Virus record (IMG/VR): IMGVR_UViG_3300035698_007257
Location: 1-38,027 of that record
Source: a virus
Strand: one strand, 5' to 3'
DNA length: 38,027 nucleotides
The notes under the pieces are model-generated. The model saw only the letters and a program-made list of their open reading frames with translations, did not search any database and was not told the origin of the DNA. Below are positions 785 through 38,027 of this stretch, piece by piece (the first letter of the stretch is position 1; each line of letters starts with the position of its first letter). Made by a program: the position numbers and the translations under genes.

Positions 785-813
785 TTGACAAGTAATTCAT
801 CGTATGCTATAAT
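785..813 (+). promoter_or_regulatory. Sigma70-type promoter, TTGACA-17-TATAAT
   Basis: The -35 box TTGACA is at 785-790 and the -10 box TATAAT at 808-813, a perfect consensus match with a 17-base spacer. It sits in the gap just after the primase stop and 21 bases before the ATG at 835, so it should drive the 835-2439 gene group and perhaps beyond. Confidence 0.9.
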
Positions 814-1275: not shown

Positions 1276-1554
1276 ATGGACACAATGGTATTTTTGACAA
1301 CTGTAGATGTATGGTTAGATAGCAAAGAGACACACTTACCTGATGATGAGACAGAAGTAGGGCATGAGTTTGCGGCTACTGTCTTTATGTCACCACAACA
1401 ATTAGACACATTAGTTAGAGTATCTGATGAGGGATTCATCGATGACTTAGAAGATTTTAAACTTATTAGACAAGGTACGGCTCCTTTAAATCCTGATGAT
1501 CTGGATGATATCTTAGATGCTTTATCTGAATTACATGACAAAGGGGATATTTAG
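1276..1554 (+). CDS. Hypothetical acidic protein, 92 aa
   Basis: I do not recognise this protein. It is strongly acidic (many Asp and Glu, especially in the last 45 residues, with DDLDDILDALSELHDKGD near the end) and has few basic residues, so it could be a nucleic-acid mimic or a binder of a basic host protein; that is speculation. A good ribosome site (AGAGGGATAAGG) precedes the ATG. Its stop lies one base before the start of the exonuclease gene, so the two are probably translationally coupled. Confidence 0.75.
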   Translation: MDTMVFLTTVDVWLDSKETHLPDDETEVGHEFAATVFMSPQQLDTLVRVSDEGFIDDLEDFKLIRQGTAPLNPDDLDDILDALSELHDKGDI

Positions 1555-1555
1555 A

Positions 1556-2305
1556 ATGAGTCAAAACCAGCAGATGATATTAATTGATGGGGATTCTATA
1601 GCGCATATAGCAGCCTATACTGGTGAAACATTAGAAGAAGCTAAGGATGTTGTAGACAACACTATGGATCGCATCAAGTCTATCACTTGGGAAGGTAACT
1701 ATGAGTTGTATGTAGAAACTCCAGTATTACCGAAAGTAAATTTTAGACATCAAGTTGCCATCACTAAGCCATATAAGGGCCATAGGACAGGAGGAAAACC
1801 TGCGCTGTTAAATGACATCAAGAAATATATGTATGATCGCTACGGCGCTGAGTTCATTAATATGGTAGAAGCTGAAGATGTGGTAAGGATTAGAGCAGTA
1901 CAATTAGGGGAGGAAGGCTGTATAATAGCACATATTGATAAAGACCTTGACCAAATTCCAGGATATCATTATAATTATAAGAAAGGGGAGACCTCGGAGG
2001 TGACCCATGATGAAGCTGATTACAATTTTTACAAACAGATGCTTACGGGCGATGCTGTTGATAATATCCCCGGCCTTACCGGATTCGGTCCGAAAAAGTC
2101 ATCTTATCTCTTGGATCCTATTAGGGGAAGAGGAGAAAGAGCTTATGCGGAAGCTGTCGCCAAAGCTTATATTACGAAAGGGTGTTCATATAATTACCTT
2201 GTTGAGCAGGCTAGGTTACTCTACCTCATTAAAAGTTTCACGGATGTTTTTATTTATCCTATAACAATTAAGGAGTACCATAACTTACAGGAGTTTTACT
2301 TATGA
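1556..2305 (+). CDS. 5'-3' exonuclease, T7 gp6 / FEN-like
   Basis: This 249-residue protein has the layout of phage 5'-3' exonucleases that remove RNA primers and generate single strands for recombination. The metal-binding acidic residues appear in order: DGD at 11-13, EAED at 105-108, DKDLDQIPG at about 128-136, and TGDAVDNIPG at about 165-173, followed by the helix-hairpin-helix stretch GLTGFGPKK that binds DNA. The start at 1556 is chosen because it follows AAAGGGGAT and begins one base after the preceding stop; an in-frame ATG at 1517 lies inside the previous gene. The length is shorter than T7 gp6 but the core is complete. Downstream, the ATGA overlap at 2302 couples it to a small membrane peptide. 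Confidence 0.88.
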   Translation: MSQNQQMILIDGDSIAHIAAYTGETLEEAKDVVDNTMDRIKSITWEGNYELYVETPVLPKVNFRHQVAITKPYKGHRTGGKPALLNDIKKYMYDRYGAEFINMVEAEDVVRIRAVQLGEEGCIIAHIDKDLDQIPGYHYNYKKGETSEVTHDEADYNFYKQMLTGDAVDNIPGLTGFGPKKSSYLLDPIRGRGERAYAEAVAKAYITKGCSYNYLVEQARLLYLIKSFTDVFIYPITIKEYHNLQEFYL

Positions 2306-2439
2306 TAATAGACACATTCTATATACTATCATATACTATAGTCTTCTTATGTCAGACAGCAATTATTGTATGTCTACTAGGGGCTATAGCTTTACTGATT
2401 AAAGAAGCGATAAATATATACAAAGAAGGATTTAAATAA
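2302..2439 (+). CDS. Small membrane protein, 45 aa
   Basis: This short reading frame starts at an ATGA overlap with the exonuclease stop and ends one base before the DsbD-like gene, which is strong evidence that it is translated. Residues 8-33 (ILSYTIVFLCQTAIIVCLLG and onward) are hydrophobic and form one membrane span, followed by a short charged tail ending KEGFK. It has two cysteines, both within the span. Function is unknown. Its place directly before the DsbD-like conveyor suggests it could be a small partner, but small single-span proteins are scattered through this arm. Confidence 0.7.
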   Translation: MIIDTFYILSYTIVFLCQTAIIVCLLGAIALLIKEAINIYKEGFK

Positions 2440-2440
2440 A

Positions 2441-3148
2441 ATGTATTTTGAACTATTAAATTTATTATACTTAGCATTCTTAGGAGGTTTTATATTAAAC
2501 ATAATGCCTTGTGTACTTCCGGTTATATCCATGAAGGTTTATAAGTTAGCTAAGATTTCGAAGTCAGGATATTTCGTAGGACTATCATATGCATTAGCCG
2601 TAACTCTAGGATTACTAATTAGTTTCTGGGGTATGGGAGCGTTTATGATATTTGCCAAGTCGGCAGGTACATCACTAGGCTGGGGATTTCAATTTCAAAG
2701 TCCAGTATTTGTATCAGTCATGGCAACACTATGTGGTATGATGGGTCTAGCCTATTTAGATTTCTTTCAATTAGGAACTAAGGTAGCTGGTAAGTCGGCT
2801 GGGTTATTAAACAAATTAAGTAGAGGACGAGGGCCTCAACTACAGGGAGTATTAGAAGGAGTTTTCTTAGCTATTATAGCTACACCTTGTACCGGCCCAC
2901 TGTTAGGTCCAGTATTAGGAGCAACAGCGGTATTACCACCATTGGAATTATTAGCAGTACTCACCTCATTAGGCTTAGGGATTATGACACCTATATTATT
3001 AATAGGAACTATCCCACCACTAAAAGCTTTATTCCCTAGATCGGGTTGGTTTACTACAGTACTTAAGTATGTAGCTGGTATTAGTTTAGTATTCTTAGCT
3101 GGGTGGTTATACTACGTAGTGTTATTACAATTAGGATTTTTATATTAA
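2441..3148 (+). CDS. DsbD-type transmembrane thiol-disulfide conveyor domain
   Basis: The protein matches the membrane core of DsbD, which carries reducing power from cytoplasmic thioredoxin across the inner membrane to periplasmic partners. The signature GGFILNIMPCVLPV in the first span places the first redox cysteine at C24, and IATPCTGPLLGPVLG places the second at C150, the known pair that forms a transmembrane disulfide. The hydrophobic pattern fits about six to eight spans over 235 residues. The periplasmic alpha domain of full-length DsbD is absent, and the gamma (thioredoxin) domain is encoded separately by the next gene 28 bases downstream. It is shorter than bacterial DsbD (about 550 residues) and is instead a stand-alone core, like CcdA/ScsB-type systems. 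The family is clear; the role during infection is not. Confidence 0.9.
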   Translation: MYFELLNLLYLAFLGGFILNIMPCVLPVISMKVYKLAKISKSGYFVGLSYALAVTLGLLISFWGMGAFMIFAKSAGTSLGWGFQFQSPVFVSVMATLCGMMGLAYLDFFQLGTKVAGKSAGLLNKLSRGRGPQLQGVLEGVFLAIIATPCTGPLLGPVLGATAVLPPLELLAVLTSLGLGIMTPILLIGTIPPLKALFPRSGWFTTVLKYVAGISLVFLAGWLYYVVLLQLGFLY

Positions 3149-3176
3149 TTAACAAAACAACGGATGGAACAATAGA

Positions 3177-3626
3177 ATGTCATATTTTAAAGTAATGGTA
3201 GGAGCTATGATGCTGGTAGGAATACTAACATCGGCTGCTGAATCGAATGTACAAACACCACAGGTGGTACAAGAGTATTATGACTCAACACCTGATTCAC
3301 TATTAAGATTAGAACAACTACGGAAAGAAGGTAAACCTGTAATGGTAAATGTAACAGCCGCTTGGTGTTTCATATGTACTGGTAACAAGTGGGCGCTGGA
3401 TCATAGAAGAGTAACTAAGTTCTACGAAGAACATGGTATCACTTATATCGTAGTAGATTGGACTCGTAGTAATAAAGCTATCGAATCATACCTAGGAACA
3501 TTCGGACGTAATGGAGTACCTCTATATGTGTACTACCCTGGTAAGGATGATAAGAGAAAAGAACCTGTTATATTACCACAGATTCTATCACCTGGTAAAA
3601 TAATTAAATACATTAGACCTAGATAG
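3177..3626 (+). CDS. Secreted thioredoxin-like protein (DsbD gamma-domain type)
   Basis: This 149-residue protein has an N-terminal signal or anchor (hydrophobic residues about 6-19, possible cleavage after TSA) and a thioredoxin-fold domain. The active site is C64-F-I-C67 in AAWCFIC. The following pattern (VVDWT, then FGRNGVPLYVYYP, then VILPQILSP) is characteristic of the C-terminal gamma domain of DsbD, including the cis-proline loop GVP. In bacteria this domain takes electrons from the DsbD membrane core, here the neighbouring gene, and passes them to periplasmic targets. The two genes together rebuild a split DsbD without its alpha domain. The start at 3177 has only a weak ribosome site, so translation may depend on the upstream gene. 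Confidence 0.9.
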   Translation: MSYFKVMVGAMMLVGILTSAAESNVQTPQVVQEYYDSTPDSLLRLEQLRKEGKPVMVNVTAAWCFICTGNKWALDHRRVTKFYEEHGITYIVVDWTRSNKAIESYLGTFGRNGVPLYVYYPGKDDKRKEPVILPQILSPGKIIKYIRPR

Positions 3627-3629
3627 TAG

Positions 3630-3659
3630 TTGACACATAAATAATAATTTGTATATAAT
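3630..3659 (+). promoter_or_regulatory. Sigma70-type promoter, TTGACA-18-TATAAT
   Basis: TTGACA at 3630-3635 and TATAAT at 3654-3659 with an 18-base spacer. It lies between the thioredoxin-like gene and a small membrane peptide followed by the ssDNA-binding protein, and gives the latter pair its own promoter. Transcription from it would stop at the hairpin at 4538-4582. Confidence 0.85.
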
Positions 3660-3691: not shown

Positions 3692-3802
3692 ATGATAGCA
3701 GGAGAAGACTTAATGACCTACATCTTAGTTGTTATGACGGGTGTTCTTATACTAAGATTTGCTTATACAACAATTAAGATATTAGTTAGAAAAGATAAAT
3801 AG
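3692..3802 (+). CDS. Small membrane peptide, 36 aa
   Basis: This short frame follows an AGGAGAACG ribosome site and lies directly downstream of a consensus promoter. It encodes one hydrophobic span (about residues 8-25, with LMTYILVVMTGVLILRF) followed by a basic tail ending RKDK, an N-out or small-toxin-like architecture. Its stop overlaps the ribosome site of the ssDNA-binding protein gene. Function is unknown; I call it a gene from its start context and composition only. Confidence 0.6.
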   Translation: MIAGEDLMTYILVVMTGVLILRFAYTTIKILVRKDK

Positions 3803-3810
3803 GAGGGCAC

Positions 3811-4512
3811 ATGGGCTCAACAAACAATACAAAGAAATTTAGAGGAAATGGAATGTTCGGTACAAGATTTAAAAAAGCATTCTTAGTAGCAGGCGATGTG
3901 ATTACAGGATTTGCTAATGTAATAAGAGTCGGCACAGATTATAATGGTAATGAAGAGTATAGTGTAACTTTTGCATTTGACCCCACTACTGTAGAAGGGA
4001 AGGCAATCCAAACACAGCTTGAAGATACTTATAATACAGCGGTAGCTCATGAGATGGCACAGTTAGAGACAGCTGGTAAGACAGGTTTCGAAGCTAACAC
4101 TCTGGCTCTAAAGACAGTAGACACATCGGAGTTATCTGATAGTGGTAAATCTACTAACCCTAGTTCATTTAGTGATGACATGCTGAAGATGAAAGTATCA
4201 TCCAAATTTGAACCGTTAGTTGTAGCTAAGACTGCCTTAAGAGATAATGATAATGTACGTAATAAGATGGGAACTGAATTACCTTTAGGCTCTACAGTAA
4301 AGCTTAAACTAACAGCCGTATCTTATAACATACCAGCTACCAAAAAAGTTGGTGTATCATTTAAATTAAACCAATTAAAGATAATGTCCTTACCCAAAAG
4401 AACATCAGCGTTTGAAGGAACACAAGATAACGCAGATACTCTAGACTTTGGAGAAGACACATCGACTACAGCATCGGATGATATTATATCTTTTGATGAA
4501 AGTATAATGTAA
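3811..4512 (+). CDS. Single-stranded DNA-binding protein, T7 gp2.5-like
   Basis: A 233-residue protein with a beta-rich core and a very acidic C-terminal tail (GEDTSTTASDDIISFDESIM), the hallmark of single-stranded DNA-binding proteins that use the tail to contact polymerase and helicase. The stretch LPLGSTVKLKLTAVSYN and then KVGVSFKLNQLKIMSL resembles the last strands of the T7 gp2.5 OB fold. It is probably highly expressed: it has its own consensus promoter, an AGGAGGGCAC ribosome site and a terminator just after the stop. The assignment rests on tail, pattern and replication-gene context rather than close similarity. Confidence 0.75.
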   Translation: MGSTNNTKKFRGNGMFGTRFKKAFLVAGDVITGFANVIRVGTDYNGNEEYSVTFAFDPTTVEGKAIQTQLEDTYNTAVAHEMAQLETAGKTGFEANTLALKTVDTSELSDSGKSTNPSSFSDDMLKMKVSSKFEPLVVAKTALRDNDNVRNKMGTELPLGSTVKLKLTAVSYNIPATKKVGVSFKLNQLKIMSLPKRTSAFEGTQDNADTLDFGEDTSTTASDDIISFDESIM

Positions 4513-4645: not shown

Positions 4646-4804
4646 ATGTTTTTATTATCATTTTTTCTATTCATCTTCGGATGTTTAGTGTTAGGTCAGT
4701 GGGCACTTTGGGTTGTGCAGTTTATAACGTATGCAGTACCTAAAATATATAAATTCACTAAGAAACTATGTGTAGAGGAAGCTAAAAATAGGAGAGATAA
4801 ATAA
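4646..4804 (+). CDS. Small membrane protein, 52 aa
   Basis: The frame begins after a GGGAGAG ribosome site and ends in a one-base overlap (TAATG) with the first protease, so translation coupling is likely. Residues about 2-32 are hydrophobic and aromatic (LSFFLFIFGCLVLG and then ALWVVQFITYAV) and form one long or two short spans; the tail is basic with KFTKKLC. Function is unknown. Its position as the leader gene of the protease operon suggests a membrane partner for the proteases, which is inference. Confidence 0.7.
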   Translation: MFLLSFFLFIFGCLVLGQWALWVVQFITYAVPKIYKFTKKLCVEEAKNRRDK

Positions 4805-5514
4805 TGCTAAGTAAGAAAGAATGTAGAAGGACAGGTTTGTTTTATTCAACTACTGTTGTTTTATTCAGCTGTCTATTAGTTGGAGCAGTTATATTATTAC
4901 CTGACTCCCCCCAACCAATGCCAACAGATAGCGTAACTTACGAAGACATCGTAGTGGTACAAAGTGGTACAGGTCACGGTACAGGCTTCTTCGTAGCAGA
5001 TGATCTAATTATAACCAATCATCACGTTGTAGCCTCTAAGGCTAGACTAACCCTAAGCCCATCAGCTAAGACGTATGTTGATGATGTTAGAGTTTCTTTT
5101 AGGGATGGTACATTTGTCGAAGGTAAAGTTATTGCTGTATTACGTGAATCAGACTTAGCTTTAATTAAAGTTAATACAACAAAGAAAGAAAAGTTATTAC
5201 CAATTAATACGACTCCTTTAGTTAGGGGAGATAAAGTATCTAGTGAAGGACACGGCGATTATCAATGGTATACTTATAAAGAAGGTAAAGTACAAACTAG
5301 GTATTGGGTAAAAGATGCTACACGTGGTCAAAACATAATGTTCTATTATACTGATATGCAGATTAGACCTGGTGATTCAGGAAGTCCTGTATTTAATGAG
5401 ACAGGAGAATTAGTTGGTGTGGTATCTAGAGCTAGAGGAAATGACTGCCTATTCATACCGGTAGATCAAGTAGTAAAATTATTATTATTATCATCATCAT
5501 CAAAAAATAAATAG
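4804..5514 (+). CDS. Membrane-anchored trypsin-like (HtrA-type) serine protease 1
   Basis: The 236-residue protein has an uncleaved-looking membrane anchor (about residues 11-32) followed by a chymotrypsin-fold protease domain. The catalytic triad is complete: H74 in TNHHVV, D117 in ESDLALIK and S192 in GDSGSPV. The oxyanion region and a final beta pair (LVGVVSRARGNDCLFIPVD) are present. There is no PDZ domain, unlike DegP/DegS/DegQ. The anchor and fold indicate a periplasm-facing protease. A near-twin follows 10 bases downstream. The 3' end carries a run of TTA and TCA triplets encoding LLLLSSSS, a low-complexity tail. The substrate is unknown; candidates are host envelope proteins or phage proteins. 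Confidence 0.88.
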   Translation: MLSKKECRRTGLFYSTTVVLFSCLLVGAVILLPDSPQPMPTDSVTYEDIVVVQSGTGHGTGFFVADDLIITNHHVVASKARLTLSPSAKTYVDDVRVSFRDGTFVEGKVIAVLRESDLALIKVNTTKKEKLLPINTTPLVRGDKVSSEGHGDYQWYTYKEGKVQTRYWVKDATRGQNIMFYYTDMQIRPGDSGSPVFNETGELVGVVSRARGNDCLFIPVDQVVKLLLLSSSSKNK

Positions 5515-5524
5515 GAGAAATATT

Positions 5525-6223
5525 ATGGAGAAGCAGAGTAAGATCTATCAGTTCTTGCGTAATGTATTTGTGGCAGCTGGGATATCATTACTATTACTAA
5601 CACCGTTTGGTGATTCAATAGGTATGGAAGAGTTTACCAAAGCTGTACCATTAAATAAAGAAGAGAGTAGAGTTATTAAAGCTAGACATGATGGAGAAGT
5701 TGGTGTAGTATATACTGGACAATCCAGAGGTACTGCATTTTTTGTAACTGACAATTTCTTAATAACCAATCATCACGTTGTAGATAACTTAGGTATAGGT
5801 AAAACAGTACTATTAGTTATGTCCGATGGTAAATCATTAAAGGGTATTATTAGAGCAAGTATTGGAGAGAATGATGTGGCCTTAATAGAGGTAGATACTG
5901 AACGTATCGAGAAGAATTACTTGGGAACTATTAGAGATCCTAAGAGTGGTGAATTAATTTATACGTTAGGTTATGGTAAGACCAAAAAGTATACAGCTAA
6001 AAAAGGGCAGTATCATAGAACTCGCTGGATTAATAAAGATGAAATGGCTATGGATATGCATAAAGGTAGATTAGAAATTACACCTGGTGATTCAGGAAGT
6101 CCTGTATGGAGTACTGATGGTTCTCTATTAGGAGTTTGTAGTTTAGGTGGTGGACGTTATACTTACTTTGTTCCGGCTAAACATATCTTTAAGTTATTTA
6201 AGGCACTTAATGATGAAGAATAA
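5525..6223 (+). CDS. Exported trypsin-like (HtrA-type) serine protease 2
   Basis: A second protease of 232 residues with a signal-like hydrophobic segment at about 10-27 and the same fold and spacing as its neighbour. The triad is H84 in TNHHVV, D117 in ENDVALIE and S190 in PGDSGSPV. Shared blocks (LITNHHVV, PGDSGSPV, the strand LLGVCSLGGGRYTYFVPA near the C terminus) show that the two arose by duplication, while the rest has diverged widely, so they probably have different substrates or form a hetero-oligomer. There is no PDZ domain. It follows AGGAGAAATATT and is in one operon with protease 1. Confidence 0.88.
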   Translation: MEKQSKIYQFLRNVFVAAGISLLLLTPFGDSIGMEEFTKAVPLNKEESRVIKARHDGEVGVVYTGQSRGTAFFVTDNFLITNHHVVDNLGIGKTVLLVMSDGKSLKGIIRASIGENDVALIEVDTERIEKNYLGTIRDPKSGELIYTLGYGKTKKYTAKKGQYHRTRWINKDEMAMDMHKGRLEITPGDSGSPVWSTDGSLLGVCSLGGGRYTYFVPAKHIFKLFKALNDEE

Positions 6224-7374: not shown

Positions 7375-7692
7375 ATGATGAAATATAATTTACCTCATAT
7401 GTGTGCTACACTCCTATTGAGCTTATTCGTATGTCTACCCAGTCATGCAGAATCGGCCCAACCGGTTTCCTATTCAACAGAGCAGTTAGTAGATTGTAAT
7501 GATATAGGAACCTTACGAGATCGTCAGTATAAATTAATACGGCGAGCACAGCATATTGAAAAAAGATCACGTCGATTCATTCACTTAGATATCGGATATT
7601 CAAAAGTTGAAAGAAGTCGAGCAAGATGGTTAAGAAAGAGAGCAAGATTAATAGAAGAGAAAATACAAGTTCTCAATAGGCGATGCAACTAA
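7375..7692 (+). CDS. Small secreted basic protein with two cysteines
   Basis: A 105-residue protein with a clear signal peptide: a hydrophobic core (about 9-22) and a predicted cut after SHA at residue 25. The mature part is about 80 residues, strongly basic and helical (many Arg/Lys, with RSRARWLRKRARLIEEK) and has one cysteine near its start (VDCND) and one as the second-last residue, well placed for a disulfide that would tie the ends together. I do not recognise a family. Export plus a cysteine pair makes it a possible client of the phage DsbD/thioredoxin pair. The start is one of two adjacent ATGs after AAGGAGAT. Confidence 0.75.
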   Translation: MMKYNLPHMCATLLLSLFVCLPSHAESAQPVSYSTEQLVDCNDIGTLRDRQYKLIRRAQHIEKRSRRFIHLDIGYSKVERSRARWLRKRARLIEEKIQVLNRRCN

Positions 7693-12400: not shown

Positions 12401-12831
12401 TTAGTTCAATAATATCCGGATTAACTAGTGCTTTAGTCGGCGCAATAAAAGATGCTATAATCTATAGGGGTAATACTAAGAGAATTAGAAAATATGTTAG
12501 ACAACAATTCTTTGCTCCTTATTTACACCTATTAGATAAGAGGCAGACAGCTGAGAAGATAGCAACTAATATGATTGATTATTTATTTATACCTGGTAAA
12601 GATGAGATATCTCTACTGAATGCTATAACCTGGATGTTAGTAGATAAAACTATATTAGATACTAAGAGAAGATTGTTAACAGAACACATAGAACGTTCAG
12701 CTATATTAATACAGGAGTTCGCTATAGTAGAAATTGATAATGATGACTTTGCTTATGTATTTGTTAAGGGTCGTAGAGAAATGGATAGATTCATAAAAGA
12801 TCTAATGACTGTAATAGGTACTAATACATGA
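12397..12831 (+). CDS. Hypothetical protein, 144 aa
   Basis: I do not recognise this protein. It begins with an amphipathic or weakly membrane-active helix (ISSIISGLTSALVGAIKDAI), then is basic and helical, ending with a beta-like segment (IVEIDNDDFAYVFV). Its start overlaps the preceding small gene (ATGA) and its end overlaps the sigma-like gene (ATGA), so the three are translated as a unit. Because it is coupled to the sigma-like factor it could act as its regulator or partner, which is inference from position only. Confidence 0.65.
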   Translation: MISSIISGLTSALVGAIKDAIIYRGNTKRIRKYVRQQFFAPYLHLLDKRQTAEKIATNMIDYLFIPGKDEISLLNAITWMLVDKTILDTKRRLLTEHIERSAILIQEFAIVEIDNDDFAYVFVKGRREMDRFIKDLMTVIGTNT

Positions 12832-13328
12832 GTAAAATAGATTTTGACCATTTTTGTTTTAACCATATAACTTATCTGTACAATTATTCTAAAAGTCAAC
12901 TAAAAAAATATAACCTTAGATCATTAGATTATAGGGATATAGTACATGATTGTCTAATAAAGACACGTAAAAAATTGGATGGTTTTGAGGGAACAGAGCA
13001 GAACTTTAGAACGTATACTTGTACTGCTATAACTAACCACTGTAAAGATTATCTGAGAAGCTACCGTAAACGAAAAGTTTGTCAGTGGGATGAAGATCTA
13101 AATACTTGTGAAATGGTAGATGAAGATGTTACAAGTGCAACTAAAGAATTACTAATAGAGTTGATGCATAAACTATCCTTCTATAACTCAAAGATTCTTA
13201 TACTAGTCTATTTAGGATTTACCAGAGCTGAGATATCTAATATAGTAGGTAAGTCATTAACTACAGTAGAATTGAGATTAAAAGAAGTTCGTAGAATAGC
13301 ACAGAGTCTAAAAGATATCATTCGATAA
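12828..13328 (+). CDS. ECF-like RNA polymerase sigma factor
   Basis: A 166-residue protein with a two-domain sigma layout. Region 2 is represented by DYRDIVHDCLIKTRKKLDGF (about 34-53) and the following FRTYTCTAITNHCKDYLRS, which has the aromatic/Arg-rich promoter-melting helix pattern. Region 4 is at about 113-160: LSFYNSKILILVYLGFTRAE followed by a helix-turn-helix with SNIVGKSLTTVELRLKEVRR. The segment between is a short acidic linker. It is the last gene of the rightward arm and ends two bases from the convergent virion operon, so it is made late in the early programme, as expected for a factor that switches on late genes. Family similarity is distant, hence moderate confidence. Confidence 0.68.
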   Translation: MSKIDFDHFCFNHITYLYNYSKSQLKKYNLRSLDYRDIVHDCLIKTRKKLDGFEGTEQNFRTYTCTAITNHCKDYLRSYRKRKVCQWDEDLNTCEMVDEDVTSATKELLIELMHKLSFYNSKILILVYLGFTRAEISNIVGKSLTTVELRLKEVRRIAQSLKDIIR

Positions 13329-13652: not shown

Positions 13653-14477
<825 letters not shown>

Positions 14478-14485
14478 ACCGATAC

Positions 14486-16384
14486 CTACTTTTTACTCCT
14501 TTTTCTATTCTTATTCTTACGCTTCTTATTCTTACGCTTCTTATTCTTAACCAGTCTCTTAATCTGAATAAGTTCGGCGTCATTTAAAAGTAATACATTT
14601 CCATCACCTGTCGGTAAAGCATATTTCTTACCGTCTTTAAGTTCTTCTAATATTCTAAAACCTTCGTGATTTTCTAACATTTCTTCGGCATAGACAGTAC
14701 TCTCTCGCTTTATACCATTAGTCGTAAGATATTCATCGTAGTCTATCCTAGTCCCTCTTTTAAATTCTTTCATGATATCTATTACTGCTTTAAGTTCATT
14801 GGTCCCTAAGGCTTTAAATCCTGCAGTTATATCACTCGGGTCTACCATTATCATACCGGCTACCCTTTCAATACCTTCATCCAAAGGTCCTCCAAGTTTC
14901 TTACGTATAGCTGCAATCAATTCACCATAAATTTGTTGAGCTCTTGCCGCCGCATTTACAGTTCTGGTTTCACCGGAATACGGGTCTGTTATTGTAACGT
15001 CTCCAGATAAGGCAGGATCAAATGTAGGTCCCACTTGTTCAAATATCTGAACCATTTCACCACTTAAACGTGAAGCCGAAGTAAAGTAGGAACTCTTCTC
15101 ACCTAGCTCCTTTCTCAATGCTGCAGGTAATTGTCCACTGGCATCCAAAGCCTTGGAAGATACATATAATTTCTGACCTCCGGGCTGACCATTAATTCCT
15201 AAACCTGCGGTTACTACGTTCGAACTCGGTAATTCACTATATTCAATCCCTTGTAAAGTTACATTATTATTAATAATTACGTTATCGATATTATGACCGT
15301 AGCTTCTTTCGAACTCAATTTGATCCTTTTGTAATTCTAAGAAACTCTTCTCTTGTTCTATTCGATTTCCCGGTATAGCCCCCGCTTCACTACCAATTTC
15401 CTTAAGTATTTTCGATCTGTCCGTCTCTAGTTTACCTATTAACTTTACCGCTGTAGTAATTGTCTTAAAAGATTTAGCCGAAGTTTTATGAGTATAAGTT
15501 CTTGTAACTTCTGATTGAGCTTGCTCATCACTCACCGTTTGATTAAAGTCTTCGGGGTTTCCCGTACGCTCGTTTATATTAGATTCAACTGCTTCTAATC
15601 TCCTAGTACGATCGGTGCGTCCCATGAGACTAGGTAGAGCATTCGTTAAACTATTAGACATCCTCTTAAGAGTATTAGCTGATTCTATTTGTTCGTTTAA
15701 AGCTTGCTCTCTTAAAGCTTGGAATTTTAAGGTATTTTGAGCATGTTCTTGATTTGTTCTAATCTGCCCCGACTCATTTGGCATTAAGCCTTCTATTACA
15801 GAACCTGCAATGGGTTGGCCATCAGCTCCAAGGGTTGGTGCTTCATCTATTTCTTCTTCAGGAGATAGGATATCAAAACCTTGTTGCACGATATCACTAT
15901 GAACTTGTTTCTGTTGGAATTGTTCTTGTTGTTTTGCTGCTTGATCTTCTGCTGATATTAAACCATGTTTCTCGATTACCCTATCTTGTCTCTTCTTTTC
16001 TAGAGCAGTGGCATCTTCACCAAGTCCTTCGAAGAAACTTATTGTACTATCACCCACACCTTTATCACGAGATGTTGTACTTGGCATTCCTTTCCCTAGA
16101 GCTAAAGACGTACCTGTATGTAATCCCCCACCAACAAATTCACCAGGAAGTCTACCTAATGGTCCCAGGAAAAATTCTCCTAAAGTTCCACCAATCTTAG
16201 CACCTATTGATAACCCGGTGGCTTCGTCTAATTGATCTTGAACATTCTGTCTAAGTATCATTTTCTCGGAATTCTCAAAGTCTATATTACGTTGAATACC
16301 GGTAGGCCCAGTTTCTCTCTTCTGACGATCTCTAACAGCTTCATATCTATTGGAGTAATCTCTAAAGTTATTTATTCCTGCCAT
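14486..16384 (-). CDS. Large internal virion (ejection-type) protein
   Basis: A 632-residue protein that I assign to the internal virion/ejection class by position (after nozzle, near the end of the late operon) and composition. A glycine-zipper-like hydrophobic segment lies at about 58-95 (GLSIGAKIGGTLGEFFLGPL and onward), which could insert in membranes, followed by long helical, Gln-rich and charged regions. The C terminus is a Lys/Arg/Asn repeat (KKRKNKKRKNKNRKRSKK) that could bind DNA. There is no lysozyme or transglycosylase motif that I can see. The ATG at 16384 follows AAGAGGAGAATGAC. Confidence 0.65.
   Translation of the reverse strand: MAGINNFRDYSNRYEAVRDRQKRETGPTGIQRNIDFENSEKMILRQNVQDQLDEATGLSIGAKIGGTLGEFFLGPLGRLPGEFVGGGLHTGTSLALGKGMPSTTSRDKGVGDSTISFFEGLGEDATALEKKRQDRVIEKHGLISAEDQAAKQQEQFQQKQVHSDIVQQGFDILSPEEEIDEAPTLGADGQPIAGSVIEGLMPNESGQIRTNQEHAQNTLKFQALREQALNEQIESANTLKRMSNSLTNALPSLMGRTDRTRRLEAVESNINERTGNPEDFNQTVSDEQAQSEVTRTYTHKTSAKSFKTITTAVKLIGKLETDRSKILKEIGSEAGAIPGNRIEQEKSFLELQKDQIEFERSYGHNIDNVIINNNVTLQGIEYSELPSSNVVTAGLGINGQPGGQKLYVSSKALDASGQLPAALRKELGEKSSYFTSASRLSGEMVQIFEQVGPTFDPALSGDVTITDPYSGETRTVNAAARAQQIYGELIAAIRKKLGGPLDEGIERVAGMIMVDPSDITAGFKALGTNELKAVIDIMKEFKRGTRIDYDEYLTTNGIKRESTVYAEEMLENHEGFRILEELKDGKKYALPTGDGNVLLLNDAELIQIKRLVKNKKRKNKKRKNKNRKRSKK
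14511..14549 (-). repeat. 15-bp tandem repeat coding Lys/Arg-rich tail
   Basis: The 15-mer TTATTCTTACGCTTC occurs twice in direct succession (14511-14525 and 14526-14540) and a third time in part (14541-14549). On the coding strand it gives KKRKN-type units at the C terminus of the internal virion protein, a site for unit gain or loss. Confidence 0.93.
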
Positions 16385-16385
16385 G

Positions 16386-17828
16386 TCATTCTCCTCTTGG
16401 GATTATATATGCACGAGTCTTAAATTCAACTGTCTGCTCTTTGTGAGCGTCGATCGTAGCCGCGCTCCATATCTCTCTAGCATCGTTAAATAAGCCTGAC
16501 TCATCCACCCATCTTTCTGCGTCTGTGATGGAGTATCCGAATACTTTTTGTAATATGTATCCACCTAACTCATGAACTGGTACACCGAAGAAACGACATA
16601 CACTACCCAGTAAGTTACGCTTTCCAACATTTTCCGTGGAGCGCGCTGCCATATCTTTTGCCCAAGATACAACGAAAGGTTTCATTAAATTGTGTGCCCA
16701 ACTGTTAGTATGCAAATCTGGTAATATTTTAGTAGTCCAGTAATAATAACAAAGTCTAACATTATCTGTTACATCTTCGGCCATTATAGTATGCTTAAAG
16801 TCGGCTTGTAATTCTTCATCAGAGATATCACCACTTCTCCAGTAATGTACACATAGAACAGATTTACCAGCTTCAGGCGCCGGCTTTGCAATCTCTTCTG
16901 CTCTTAACTCTTCTGCTTCTCTCTGTGCTCTTGTTGCTTCTGCTTGACTGCTTTCAGATAGTAGTTGTTCTCTAACTCCTGCTCTTTCAGCTACACCTTG
17001 TGCAACGATATTCTCTTCTGTACCTAAACGACCGAACACTTCTCTCGAGTTCTGATCTAAGTTAAGTAGTTGTCTATTAAGAACGTCTTCTCTAATAGCT
17101 CCTTGTAAATCTTCTAACCGGCTGGATAGGTCATTAACCTGAGCATCCAATCTTCCTTTTAAATCTTCTTGTGCAGCTAAACCTGTTTGTTTAACTCCTT
17201 CACCTTGTAGTGCTAATTCGTCTGCTCTATCTAAGTTACCTAATAATATATCTCTCTCTAAATTTCCTCTAGCGTAAGTAGATGAACCTATAGCATCGTT
17301 AATAGCTGCAGAAGATCCTCTTGTACCGAACTCATTACCTTGTGTTCTAATAGCTTTTAAATTATTTTTGAGAGCATCTTGTATACCTTGTATACCTTGA
17401 GATCTAGCTAACTTAGCTGAATCACTACTTGGGTCTCTACGGGATGCTTCTAATTGAGCCAATCTAGCTACACTTGAATCGGTGGCACCACGACGTTGAT
17501 CTAATAGGGCATCTCCCTCAGTCTCAACATCAGAAATCCTCTGTCTTCTATCGTCCGCTAAAGCTTGTACGCTGTTAGATTCACTTTCGTCTACTCGACC
17601 TAATGAACCTTCAGAAAATACTTCTTCACCTCGGGCTATACCCTCAATTCTATCTTCTGATCGTTGATCTTTAGTTGCCTCTAATCTACTATCGAATGAA
17701 CTCTCCAGCTGTCTTAACTGTAGTGCTAATAGTGCTTCAGCTTCTTCAGCTTTAGCCTTCGAGTCACCACTAAGCTTACTTAATAGATCATCGACTGATG
17801 GGGTCACATTCTCGTCTCCGTCTGCCAT
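16386..17828 (-). CDS. Coiled-coil virion protein with a distinct C-terminal domain
   Basis: A 480-residue protein. Residues about 20-320 are almost entirely helical and charged (Arg, Glu, Gln, Ala), a long coiled coil such as found in internal virion or tail proteins. From about 325 the composition changes sharply to a compact domain rich in Trp, Tyr, Cys and His (CVHYWRSGDISDEELQ, then YYYWTTKILPDL), containing four cysteines. I do not recognise this domain. A late-type motif at 17858-17874 stands 29 bases before its start. Function as a virion protein is inferred from position. Confidence 0.65.
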   Translation of the reverse strand: MADGDENVTPSVDDLLSKLSGDSKAKAEEAEALLALQLRQLESSFDSRLEATKDQRSEDRIEGIARGEEVFSEGSLGRVDESESNSVQALADDRRQRISDVETEGDALLDQRRGATDSSVARLAQLEASRRDPSSDSAKLARSQGIQGIQDALKNNLKAIRTQGNEFGTRGSSAAINDAIGSSTYARGNLERDILLGNLDRADELALQGEGVKQTGLAAQEDLKGRLDAQVNDLSSRLEDLQGAIREDVLNRQLLNLDQNSREVFGRLGTEENIVAQGVAERAGVREQLLSESSQAEATRAQREAEELRAEEIAKPAPEAGKSVLCVHYWRSGDISDEELQADFKHTIMAEDVTDNVRLCYYYWTTKILPDLHTNSWAHNLMKPFVVSWAKDMAARSTENVGKRNLLGSVCRFFGVPVHELGGYILQKVFGYSITDAERWVDESGLFNDAREIWSAATIDAHKEQTVEFKTRAYIIPRGE

Positions 17829-33733: not shown

Positions 33734-33916
33734 GTGAGTGTTACTAAAATCATAATCATAACTTGGGGCTTAGTATGTTTAGCTCAAGTATCAGGTGATG
33801 AGTTTCCATGTGAGGGTAAACGTAAAATTCGCACAGTAATAGAGTCAGTATGTAACAAAGTACCTAAGGCAAAACCAAGTATACAATTTATAATTAGCGG
33901 GGCAACACATGCATAA
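33734..33916 (+). CDS. Small secreted two-cysteine protein, GTG start
   Basis: The GTG at 33734 is preferred over a TTG at 33728 because the ribosome site (GGAAGAGG) is nine bases before it. The 60-residue product begins with a signal sequence (SVTKIIIITWGLVCLAQVSG; likely cut after VSG), leaving a mature part of about 40 residues with one cysteine at FPCEG and another at SVCNK and a basic middle. It is the first gene of the early operon, so it is probably made soon after infection and exported to the periplasm. The two mature cysteines may form one disulfide, making it another possible client of the phage DsbD pair. I do not recognise a family. Confidence 0.65.
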   Translation: MSVTKIIIITWGLVCLAQVSGDEFPCEGKRKIRTVIESVCNKVPKAKPSIQFIISGATHA

Positions 33917-35282
33917 AGAAACTGATCAGTTAATAAGGAATGCAATAGCTATAGCGGTTACGTATGGTAATTCCTCTGTTAATCCACGTCATTTGTTTAC
34001 CGCTGGATTTCAGAGTGGTAACAAGATAGTTTTAGAAGCATTTAATAAGTTAAACCTTAGTGAAGAGGTATTTTATACAATAGAAGAGAAGCTAAACCCT
34101 AATAAAATAGAACAGACAGAAGAGGACATAGTTTTAAGTGAGGATTTACAACGTTCATTATTTGTATTCGCTGGATTAGTTGACGACGAAATACTTACAG
34201 GTACTCCAGTTGAGCTATTGATGGTATGTCTTGCAGGATCAGATAAAGAGTGGATGGCTTGTTTCGGTGTATTAGGATTATCTAGTAGGGGAGTATATGA
34301 GGTATTAAAGGAAACATGGGAGAAATACAGTCTTGGTGATGAAGACGAAGATAAAATAGACGTAAGACCTCTTGAAGTTAATAAGATTAGATTAGATATA
34401 GATTCTGAAGAATTACTAAAGACCTTAAATATTACAAAATTTGAAGCGCCTGTCCTTAAAGATAATTCGGTTATTACGAAGTATTGCCGCAATTTGACAC
34501 AAGAAGCTAGAGATGGAAAGCTAGATCCTATTATAGGGAGACAAAAGGAAATTGCTAGGTTGATTCAAGTGTTGGGACGTAGAAAGAAGTGTAACCCCAT
34601 ACTATTAGGTGACGCTGGTGTAGGTAAAACGGCATTAGTCGAAGGATTAGCCTTAGCTGTTGTTAATGAAGAAGATCACGTTGCTACGCTACACGGTAAA
34701 GAGATTATCGTAGTAGATATGGGTGTAATGACTGCAGGTACTAAATATAGAGGTGAGTTCGAAGAAAGATTTATCGGTTTAATTACAGAGTTAGAAGAAC
34801 AACCTAATGTTATCGCCTTTATTGATGAGATACATACACTTGTAGGTTCAGGAAGTTCAAGTGAAGGTAACATTGACGGTAGTAATATGCTTAAACCTGT
34901 GCTGGCTACAGGTAAGGTACAGATCATTGGAGCTACTACCAAGTTAGAATACAAATTTATTAAGAAAGATCCTGCGTTAGCTCGTAGATTTCAGGCTATC
35001 GAATTAGAAATATTATCGGATGGAGAGATCTATGATATTCTAAAAGGATTAAAACCTCTATATGAGGAGTACCATCAATGTGCATACACCTACCCAGCTC
35101 TGAAGTTTTGTGTTCAAGCAGGAAAACTATTAGCAGGTAGGAATGCCCCAGATATTCAGATTGATTTAATTGATGAAGCAGGTAGTAGATATAAAGGTGA
35201 GGTAATTGATAAACCTAAAATGAGAGCTATCTTTGACTTATATAAAGAGTCTCATCAGACTAAGAGCCCAATTGGATTTTAA
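33909..35282 (+). CDS. ClpA/ClpC-type AAA+ unfoldase with a single ATPase ring
   Basis: A 457-residue protein that starts with Clp N-domain-like repeats (DQLIRNAIAIAVTYGNSSVN at 6-25) and then one AAA+ module of the ClpA/ClpC D1 type: IIGRQKEIARLIQVLGRR before Walker A G234-DAGVG-K240-T241, pore loop AGTKYRGEFEERF at about 276-288, Walker B AFIDE (303-307) and sensor/arginine finger ATTKLEY to ALARRF. After this it should continue with D2, but the protein ends after a small helical lid with SPIGF. Bacterial homologues of about 750-850 residues have two rings; in them an internal (I/V)G(F/L) loop docks on ClpP. Here the last three residues are IGF. The gene overlaps the preceding secreted peptide gene. 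Confidence 0.88.
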   Translation: MHKETDQLIRNAIAIAVTYGNSSVNPRHLFTAGFQSGNKIVLEAFNKLNLSEEVFYTIEEKLNPNKIEQTEEDIVLSEDLQRSLFVFAGLVDDEILTGTPVELLMVCLAGSDKEWMACFGVLGLSSRGVYEVLKETWEKYSLGDEDEDKIDVRPLEVNKIRLDIDSEELLKTLNITKFEAPVLKDNSVITKYCRNLTQEARDGKLDPIIGRQKEIARLIQVLGRRKKCNPILLGDAGVGKTALVEGLALAVVNEEDHVATLHGKEIIVVDMGVMTAGTKYRGEFEERFIGLITELEEQPNVIAFIDEIHTLVGSGSSSEGNIDGSNMLKPVLATGKVQIIGATTKLEYKFIKKDPALARRFQAIELEILSDGEIYDILKGLKPLYEEYHQCAYTYPALKFCVQAGKLLAGRNAPDIQIDLIDEAGSRYKGEVIDKPKMRAIFDLYKESHQTKSPIGF

Positions 35283-36456: not shown

Positions 36457-37857
36457 ATGACAGATTTAAATATAGATAAACAACGCATTCAAGTTATACA
36501 AGAGTTAACCCAGTTAGCAAAGGTACACCCTGAAGCTGGACAGTTATATAGAACATTAATGCAGACAGTCTTTGACGCTCCACAAGATCCAACATGTGCA
36601 GAGTTTGTAAATCAATACAGAAGTTTATATGATATAGAGATAAGACCTAATGGTATCTTTAAGAAGGGTGACCTAATTAAAAACCAAAGAGCTTTCTTTT
36701 ATAGGATGCATGAGGATTGGAGATCATATAGTAAGACACATAAGTTACGAGCAGGAGATATTAGTAGAGATGCTATTGCTTTAGAATTTGAAGCAGTATT
36801 GGAAGAAGAATGGGACAATAAACGGCAGGATCTAAGGAAGAGTTTAGAGCCTCAGCCTGATATAGAGAAGTTCGATAAGTTATTAACAGATTTTACTAGG
36901 GCTGTAGTAGGTAAACGTGTAGAAGATGAAGATGATATAGAATTTAGAAGAGCTATGGCATTCATCGGTCACTTTATTTGGCAGACACAAATGAAATTAC
37001 ATGTAGGACCTGAAGCTATATTGCGTATGGGTAACGAAGCTATGTTACTATTAGTATCTAAACAGCAGAAGACAGGTAAATCTACTACTATTAGAAAACT
37101 TATTCAACCCTTTACAGACTTTGGATTTGTGTGGAAGACAGACTTTAGTAGATTAGAGGATCAGTTCTCTTTACAGAACTTAGCGTATAACTATGTAGCA
37201 TGGTTTGATGACGCTGGTCGAGGTAGTGTAAAGAACATGGCTAAATTTAAACAGTTAGTTACGGATGATGAAGTAAACTTTAGGGCAATGTATACTCAAA
37301 CAGAGATGAAGATGCCTAAGTTATCTACACTAGTAGGTACATCAAACAAGCCAGCAAGAGAATTAATTAATGATACTACAGGACTACGACGTATACACCA
37401 GATCTTTGTGAATGGTAAAAGTGTAGATACTGGAGGAGGTATTGATTTAATATTCTTAGATTCCTTCGATCATACTGAGTTAATACGTAGTGTACCTATC
37501 GATAATGATGCATCACCACTATTTAGATACATCAGTCCACAAGAACTATCAGAGTATGAAGATACTATCAGACCTAGAAACATGGTAGAACTATGGGCAG
37601 AATCTAATGGGTATGGACCGGGTACTAGAGCAGATAACCTAATGAAGTTTGGTGATATATACAAACACTTCTGTATGTGGGCATCGGACAATGGTTATCC
37701 TAAAGGGTATACACCTAACAGTGAAAGCTTTAGATATAAATTAACAGAATTAGAATTTGAACCAGGTCGTAGTAAAACTATGCGTGGTTTCTATGTTAAA
37801 ATAGCAGGTGGTAGTAATTCAGCCATCTTAGATAGTACTGACTCAGGAGGATTTTAA
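36457..37857 (+). CDS. SF3-type (D5/VirE-like) replicative helicase
   Basis: A 466-residue ATPase. The N-terminal 150 residues are helical and acidic, similar to the D5 N-terminal region. Walker A is in SKQQKTGKST (G207-K208-S209-T210), Walker B is AWFDDAG (D251-D252), and the SF3 C motif/sensor is LVGTSNKPARE with N297. The final region (from about 375) has a winged-helix-like pattern (MVELWAESNGYGPGTRADNL and MKFGDIYKHFC), as in DUF5906/D5 proteins that load on origin DNA. It directly precedes the AEP primase with one base between. This is the phage's main replicative helicase; no DnaB-type helicase is present. Confidence 0.82.
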   Translation: MTDLNIDKQRIQVIQELTQLAKVHPEAGQLYRTLMQTVFDAPQDPTCAEFVNQYRSLYDIEIRPNGIFKKGDLIKNQRAFFYRMHEDWRSYSKTHKLRAGDISRDAIALEFEAVLEEEWDNKRQDLRKSLEPQPDIEKFDKLLTDFTRAVVGKRVEDEDDIEFRRAMAFIGHFIWQTQMKLHVGPEAILRMGNEAMLLLVSKQQKTGKSTTIRKLIQPFTDFGFVWKTDFSRLEDQFSLQNLAYNYVAWFDDAGRGSVKNMAKFKQLVTDDEVNFRAMYTQTEMKMPKLSTLVGTSNKPARELINDTTGLRRIHQIFVNGKSVDTGGGIDLIFLDSFDHTELIRSVPIDNDASPLFRYISPQELSEYEDTIRPRNMVELWAESNGYGPGTRADNLMKFGDIYKHFCMWASDNGYPKGYTPNSESFRYKLTELEFEPGRSKTMRGFYVKIAGGSNSAILDSTDSGGF

Positions 37858-37858
37858 T

Positions 37859-38027
37859 ATGTGTGATACAGCAGCTTACTTACAATTATTATACCGAGCA
37901 AAAGAACATGTTAACGTATGTTATAGTTCACCTAAAGAAATTGGTAGTGCTCGTGTTGAGACTATAAAGGATGATGGGATGTATATATGCTGCAACCCTT
38001 TAATTACAGCGGGGACACGTAGAACAT
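37859..38027 (+). CDS. AEP DNA primase, 5' part (continues at base 1)
   Basis: The ATG at 37859 begins one base after the helicase stop. The frame is open to the right edge and continues at base 1, since bases 37901-38027 equal bases 1-127. The full protein is 273 residues; the first 14 (MCDTAAYLQLLYRA) are unique to this side. The catalytic motifs lie in the part listed at 1-780. Confidence 0.8.
   Translation, partial: MCDTAAYLQLLYRAKEHVNVCYSSPKEIGSARVETIKDDGMYICCNPLITAGTRRT
37901..38027. repeat. Right copy of 127-bp terminal direct repeat
   Basis: Exact copy of bases 1-127. When it is collapsed, the molecule closes to a 37,900-bp circle and the primase gene becomes continuous. Confidence 0.97.

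Follow-up and report, generated by a model that had tools for sequence, protein, structure and literature searches.

The window, by which we mean the whole 38,027-base stretch of DNA analysed here, is a phage genome in which two neighbouring genes, separated by 28 bp, encode a split, alpha-less DsbD, an identification that is well supported by sequence profiles and by the predicted fold of the second protein. DsbD is a bacterial three-domain thiol:disulfide reductase by which thiols of the cell envelope are maintained in the reduced form. The first gene encodes a stand-alone beta-type membrane protein, a predicted electron conveyor, and the second a gamma-like thioredoxin that is predicted to be exported (Table 1). 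The preliminary description had proposed that these genes rebuild two of the three DsbD modules, and the Pfam matches, the fold of gamma and the neighbourhood of the pair all agree with this. Both proteins score over the Pfam cut-off for families inside the DsbD/thioredoxin group, and the NCBIfam DsbD and TsoB models align beta and gamma each to the corresponding region of DsbD. The full-length DsbD model NF001419 gives only 16.2 and 17.2 bits for the pair against a cut-off of 330, but scores far under whole-protein cut-offs are expected because beta and gamma are separate modules. The alpha domain (DsbD_N) was detected neither in the window genome nor in a second phage, G001, that carries the same two modules, and the pair had no defence-system match.

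Table 1. Features of the window discussed in the text, with the basis for each assignment
Feature	Position	Strand	Basis
Perfect sigma-70-type promoter (TTGACA-17-TATAAT, extended TG)	785..813	+	Sequence match
T7-gp6-like 5'-3' exonuclease, preceding the pair	1517..2305	+	phrog_107, 1e-49
45-aa membrane ORF directly before beta	2302..2439	+	ORF and hydropathy scan; without homology support
Stand-alone DsbD beta-type membrane protein, predicted electron conveyor	2441..3148	+	PF02683; 235 aa; ORF intact
Redox cysteine C24 in MPCVLP	2510..2512	+	Invariant, 62 aligned sequences
Redox cysteine C150 in TPCTGP	2888..2890	+	Invariant, 62 aligned sequences
DsbD-gamma-like thioredoxin, predicted exported	3177..3626	+	PF13899; 149 aa; signal-peptide-like N-terminus
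CFIC active site C64-C67 (in WCFIC)	3366..3377	+	Both cysteines invariant, 57 sequences
Perfect sigma-70-type promoter, upstream of the SSB unit	3630..3659	+	Sequence match
gp2.5-like ssDNA-binding protein (SSB), downstream of the pair	3811..4512	+	phrog_112, 1.1e-15
Membrane-anchored trypsin-like protease 1 (GDSGSP)	4804..5514	+	Trypsin_2, 3.4e-25; homologues in G001
Membrane-anchored trypsin-like protease 2	5525..6223	+	Trypsin_2, 1.9e-15; paralogue of protease 1, 32%
Candidate substrate, small secreted protein, C41 and C104 in the mature part	7375..7692	+	Inference; no family match
ECF-like sigma factor	12828-13328	end of plus-strand arm	Sigma70_r2, 5e-9
Candidate substrate, 62-aa secreted peptide, C28 and C42	33728..33916	+	Inference; no family match

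The beta protein matches the Pfam profile DsbD_TM (PF02683) over positions 4-216 of 219 (2e-12, 47.3 bits vs a cut-off of 27.1), and is 30-40% identical to bacterial DsbD beta domains; for the best 80 bacterial loci, identity in the best segment is ~32-40%. Its two redox cysteines, C24 and C150, had been named in the preliminary description and were confirmed at their ORF coordinates; besides the window protein, the alignment in which they are invariant comprises 60 beta domains from bacteria and one homologue from a phage. Window beta retains N20, M22, P23, C24, V25, P27, W81, P149, C150, and P153, all of which are invariant in the 60 bacterial homologues, together with the conserved GG..LN.MPCV.P block, and it matches 33 of the 42 columns that are at least 90% conserved among bacteria. 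AlphaFold predicts an all-helical protein (pLDDT 86.7), and the model suggests ~6 membrane helices, compared with the 8 spans of E. coli DsbD. Lysines and arginines are clustered in loops 32-41, 114-130, and 195-200, a placement that fits an N-out/C-out topology in which the C-terminus would be periplasmic. A Foldseek search with the predicted beta fold returned no match in PDB or BFVD; as it missed even the CcdA entries, the absence of viral fold matches carries little weight. The phmmer match between beta and solved CcdA was weak (E 0.4).

The gamma protein matches Thioredoxin_7 (PF13899) at 4e-12 and 46.5 bits, against a cut-off of 27, and eight of its positions are invariant across 57 sequences (A61, W63, C64, C67, D94, T96, L106, and P115, the last being the proline that is expected to be cis). 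The CFIC site and the GVPLY and LPQIL blocks reported in the preliminary description are all present, while the signal that it reported is an N-terminus that looks signal-like by hydropathy and by reading, suggesting that gamma is exported to the periplasm. In a Foldseek search of the AlphaFold model (pLDDT 88.2) against PDB, places 1-7 were all E. coli DsbD-gamma, with a best E of 2.5e-6 and TM scores of ~0.60 when normalised by the query and of 0.71-0.75 when normalised by the target. The DsbE and ResA models scored far below cut-off on gamma, and its match to the phage thioredoxin family phrog_22 was non-significant (E 0.13).

The first 127 bases of the window are repeated at its end, and a 273-aa primase-like ORF runs through this repeat (37859-38027 joined to 1-780), indicating that the genome is circular or terminally redundant. 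Phage genes in the window include those for a terminase, a portal, a major head protein, the exonuclease, and the gp2.5-like SSB, as well as a DNA polymerase, endonuclease I, and a sigma factor, which could perhaps serve the late minus-strand genes. The pair sits between the exonuclease, which is ~35-40% identical to Roseobacter and Lentibacter phage homologues (tblastn), and the SSB. It has a GC content of 0.369 vs 0.368 for the rest of the phage, and its codon use resembles that of the remaining phage genes. Three perfect sigma-70 promoters occur in the window vs 0.05 expected from shuffles. The promoter at 785 probably starts a transcript that would extend to the pair and, given the second promoter at 3630, the pair probably closes an early, host-read transcript if the unit boundaries are where these promoters suggest. 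Tiny membrane ORFs precede not only beta (2302-2439) but also the SSB (3692-3802) and protease 1 (4646-4804). The two trypsin-like proteases lie in tandem and have N-terminal anchors. Elsewhere in the window, 33909-35282 encodes a ClpA/ClpB-like AAA+ protein (phrog_4871, ATP-dependent protease) that stops after the first ATPase domain.

The second phage, G001 (IMG/VR 3300018080_000051; 42.8 kb), is distantly related to the window phage, with terminase, portal, head, tail, primase, and polymerase relatives at 23-40% identity. It encodes a lone beta that is 30-31% identical to window beta and over the PF02683 cut-off, and in which one flanking proline has been lost (SACCGP). Its gamma-like thioredoxin scores just below the Pfam cut-off and is encoded elsewhere in the genome, not adjacent to beta. 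G001 also encodes three trypsin-like proteases (locus L005, 12583-14419, minus strand). In the survey of related phages suggested in the preliminary description, both modules recur in G001, where they are not neighbours. Further members of the group were found via a shared tail adaptor, and the five of these records that were searched (three of 40.6, 33.4, and 22.6 kb plus two fragments; some may be incomplete) lack beta, gamma, and these proteases. The reductase pair and the proteases thus co-occur in both pair-bearing phages but in no other of the related records covered, which hints at a functional link between them, two phages being too few as proof. Several small exported cysteine-containing proteins were also seen in G001 and are candidate clients there. 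Locus L010 encodes a secreted, metallothionein-like 59-aa peptide with 11 cysteines (14434-14613) and additional small secreted proteins containing cysteines at 13925-14194 (GCDHC), 15408-15671, and 15680-15889. A CLPC motif occurs in a small membrane protein whose gene stands 2 bases before G001 beta (L005 9690-9992; G001 36840-37142).

In the bacterial relatives examined, the modules are mostly joined. Most of the best 80 bacterial loci from the alignment query combine an extended N-terminal region with beta and a gamma match within one ORF; the exceptions are a few loci cut by contig ends, one without a gamma match (L028), and one in which the gamma match lies outside the beta ORF (L065). 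Both bacterial relatives that were scanned with Pfam have DsbD_N, DsbD_TM, and Thioredoxin_7 in one protein. DsbD relatives occur in Acetobacteraceae, Bacteriovoracia, Planctomycetota, and others, and window gamma falls within a mainly alphaproteobacterial set in the tree (98/81). Both phage proteins have long branches, so no donor can be named, and the AU test did not reject a single origin of the two phage copies (p 0.41 for beta and 0.48 for gamma).

The preliminary description had called such conveyors an unusual phage cargo, and searches of phage collections are in line with this. Using the window proteins, bacterial beta-gamma, and G001 beta as tblastn queries against 50,697 phage records, we found no genuine phage homologue among the matches checked (MT837148 left out). 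INPHARED records MT837473 and MT839622 were rejected as phage examples because they have bacterial neighbours and a full-length DsbD, as was CAKLQH020000008 (L104, CAKLQH020000008.1), a piece of bacterial DNA containing pyrE and xthA; a fourth match represents another assembly of the same Acinetobacter record. Bacterial chromosome genes (pyrE, xthA, mnmA-like, and others) are carried by the INPHARED-labelled phage records L104, L002, and L003. Two IMG/VR alignment queries yielded G001 and two further records, 3300038829_000230 and 3300032579_001030, which we set aside as prophages next to a host DsbD. In IMG/VR loci L006 and L111, a prophage adjoins the full-length DsbD gene of a GC-rich host, possibly reflecting a shared integration neighbourhood. 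The pattern step of the alignment query is narrow, so the true number of phage cases may be higher; when beta, gamma, polymerase, and helicase were each used alone to scan IMG/VR, no relatives came up. Bacterial DsbD beta does match phrog_33510, a small PHROGs family of unknown function (226 aa; 1.7e-9 and 5e-10), to which the window and G001 proteins had no match. The presence of proteins of DsbD type among viral or prophage sequences is therefore not wholly new. We found no phage DsbD in the literature, of which our coverage was partial.

We consider it likely that the pair works as a DsbD without its alpha module, passing electrons from host thioredoxin through beta to periplasmic gamma and on to envelope disulfides. 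By analogy with DsbD and CcdA-Etrx (PMC3914529, PMC4460558), host cytoplasmic thioredoxin would give electrons to C24/C150 of beta, these would pass to C64/C67 of the separate gamma protein if the two are indeed partners, and gamma would then reduce disulfides of envelope proteins during infection. As there is no alpha, gamma must act on its clients directly or via host proteins. Our best guess is that the clients are either proteins of the host envelope or products of the phage itself that are exported or anchored in the membrane; that they are phage proteins alone seems somewhat doubtful. Several observations weigh against this reading of the pair: the beta model has no PDB fold match and fewer helices than E. 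coli DsbD, its match to CcdA is weak, both phage proteins have long branches, and in G001 the two genes are apart, a flanking proline is missing, and gamma falls just short of the Pfam cut-off. The proposal in the preliminary description that the phage keeps periplasmic thiols reduced, and the purposes it offered (assembly of exported cysteine proteins of the phage, an envelope enzyme, a lysis step, or host cytochrome maturation), go beyond what sequence and fold show and are conjectural. MsrB (PF01641) was found in neither the window phage nor G001, which leaves a chain like that of Etrx and MsrAB, with its partner encoded by the phage, unsupported.

The pair combines traits of several known systems. 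It shares beta, gamma, the catalytic cysteines, and the flanking prolines with DsbD, which has three domains in one protein, whereas the phage has separate beta and gamma genes and no recognisable alpha. CcdA hands electrons to Etrx, ResA, or HP0377, and these systems of CcdA and an exported thioredoxin (CcdA2-Etrx2, HP0265-HP0377, and CcdA-ResA) have the same two-gene layout and expected electron path as the phage pair. Unlike them, the pair is phage-borne, and its beta finds its matches in DsbD_TM and DsbD homologues, with just a weak score against solved CcdA. The bicistronic CcdA2-Etrx2 of Streptococcus pneumoniae is a precedent for a conveyor encoded with an exported thioredoxin (PMC3914529). 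ScsB, a DsbD-like class (PMC4460558), is a conveyor whose domains are arranged similarly; the phage pair lacks its N-terminal part. Phage thioredoxins such as phrog_22 share the common thioredoxin fold, but the window protein differs from them in its signal-like N-terminus and its likeness to DsbD-gamma.

Phages use cytoplasmic thioredoxins, and host thioredoxin is the processivity factor for T7 gp5. The window thioredoxin might serve the phage DNA polymerase in the same way, with the membrane gene as unrelated cargo, since exonuclease and SSB flank the pair in the replication arm, the phage encodes a Pol I-family polymerase, and phiCbK-like phages retain a T7-type thioredoxin-binding loop (PMC3556154). 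We regard this as very unlikely, because gamma has a signal-peptide-like N-terminus and its nearest fold is DsbD-gamma and not cytoplasmic thioredoxin, a conveyor gene adjoins the thioredoxin gene, both modules recur in G001 at a distance from the polymerase gene, and a phmmer search with the polymerase retrieves no T7 gp5 chain. Still less credible is that the pair is host DNA which the phage has picked up without benefiting from it, or that it arose from a chimeric assembly. Virus collections do hold host DNA, as the three bacterial INPHARED records and the two IMG/VR prophages beside host DsbD illustrate, but the end repeat and the gene across the join show that the pair is not a chimeric insert, the outcome that the preliminary description had named as counting against it. 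The phage genes on both sides, the phage-like codon use, the split form, the retained catalytic residues, and the recurrence of the set in G001 likewise speak for genes that belong to the phage.

The remaining alternatives accept the reductase and differ in its purpose. The pair could feed CcmG-type proteins and so sustain cytochrome c maturation during infection, an auxiliary metabolic role that would parallel the support given to this process by CcdA and DsbD in bacteria (PMC4460558). This appears unlikely, as no cytochrome maturation gene was seen in the window and the exported thioredoxin is DsbD-gamma-like, not CcmG/ResA-like. It is also improbable that the pair controls lysis through the timely reduction of a disulfide-locked periplasmic lysis enzyme. 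Phages do use a disulfide switch, as in P1 Lyz, which is kept inactive by a disulfide according to the part of PMC3556154 that discusses it, and in G001 the gamma gene (17024-17788) overlaps a GTA-type holin gene (L010 16638-17039), which favours such a role in that phage. In the window, however, the pair sits in a replication arm that looks early, which weighs somewhat against a role in late lysis, and neither a SAR endolysin nor a holin was identified. It is intriguing to consider an “unlock and cut” module, in which the pair would open disulfides of the host envelope and the anchored proteases would then cut, remodelling the periplasm, but we hold this to be quite unlikely.

We found no record of a phage that brings a transmembrane electron conveyor together with its own periplasmic thioredoxin. 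Because the machinery was found in just one other, distantly related phage, a phage-borne conveyor and thioredoxin may be a new way to change envelope chemistry. The split form is a natural minimal DsbD that does without the alpha domain. If the pair works, the phage would set how reduced the host envelope is, with possible consequences for lysis switches, for the folding of receptors and secreted proteins, and for superinfection.
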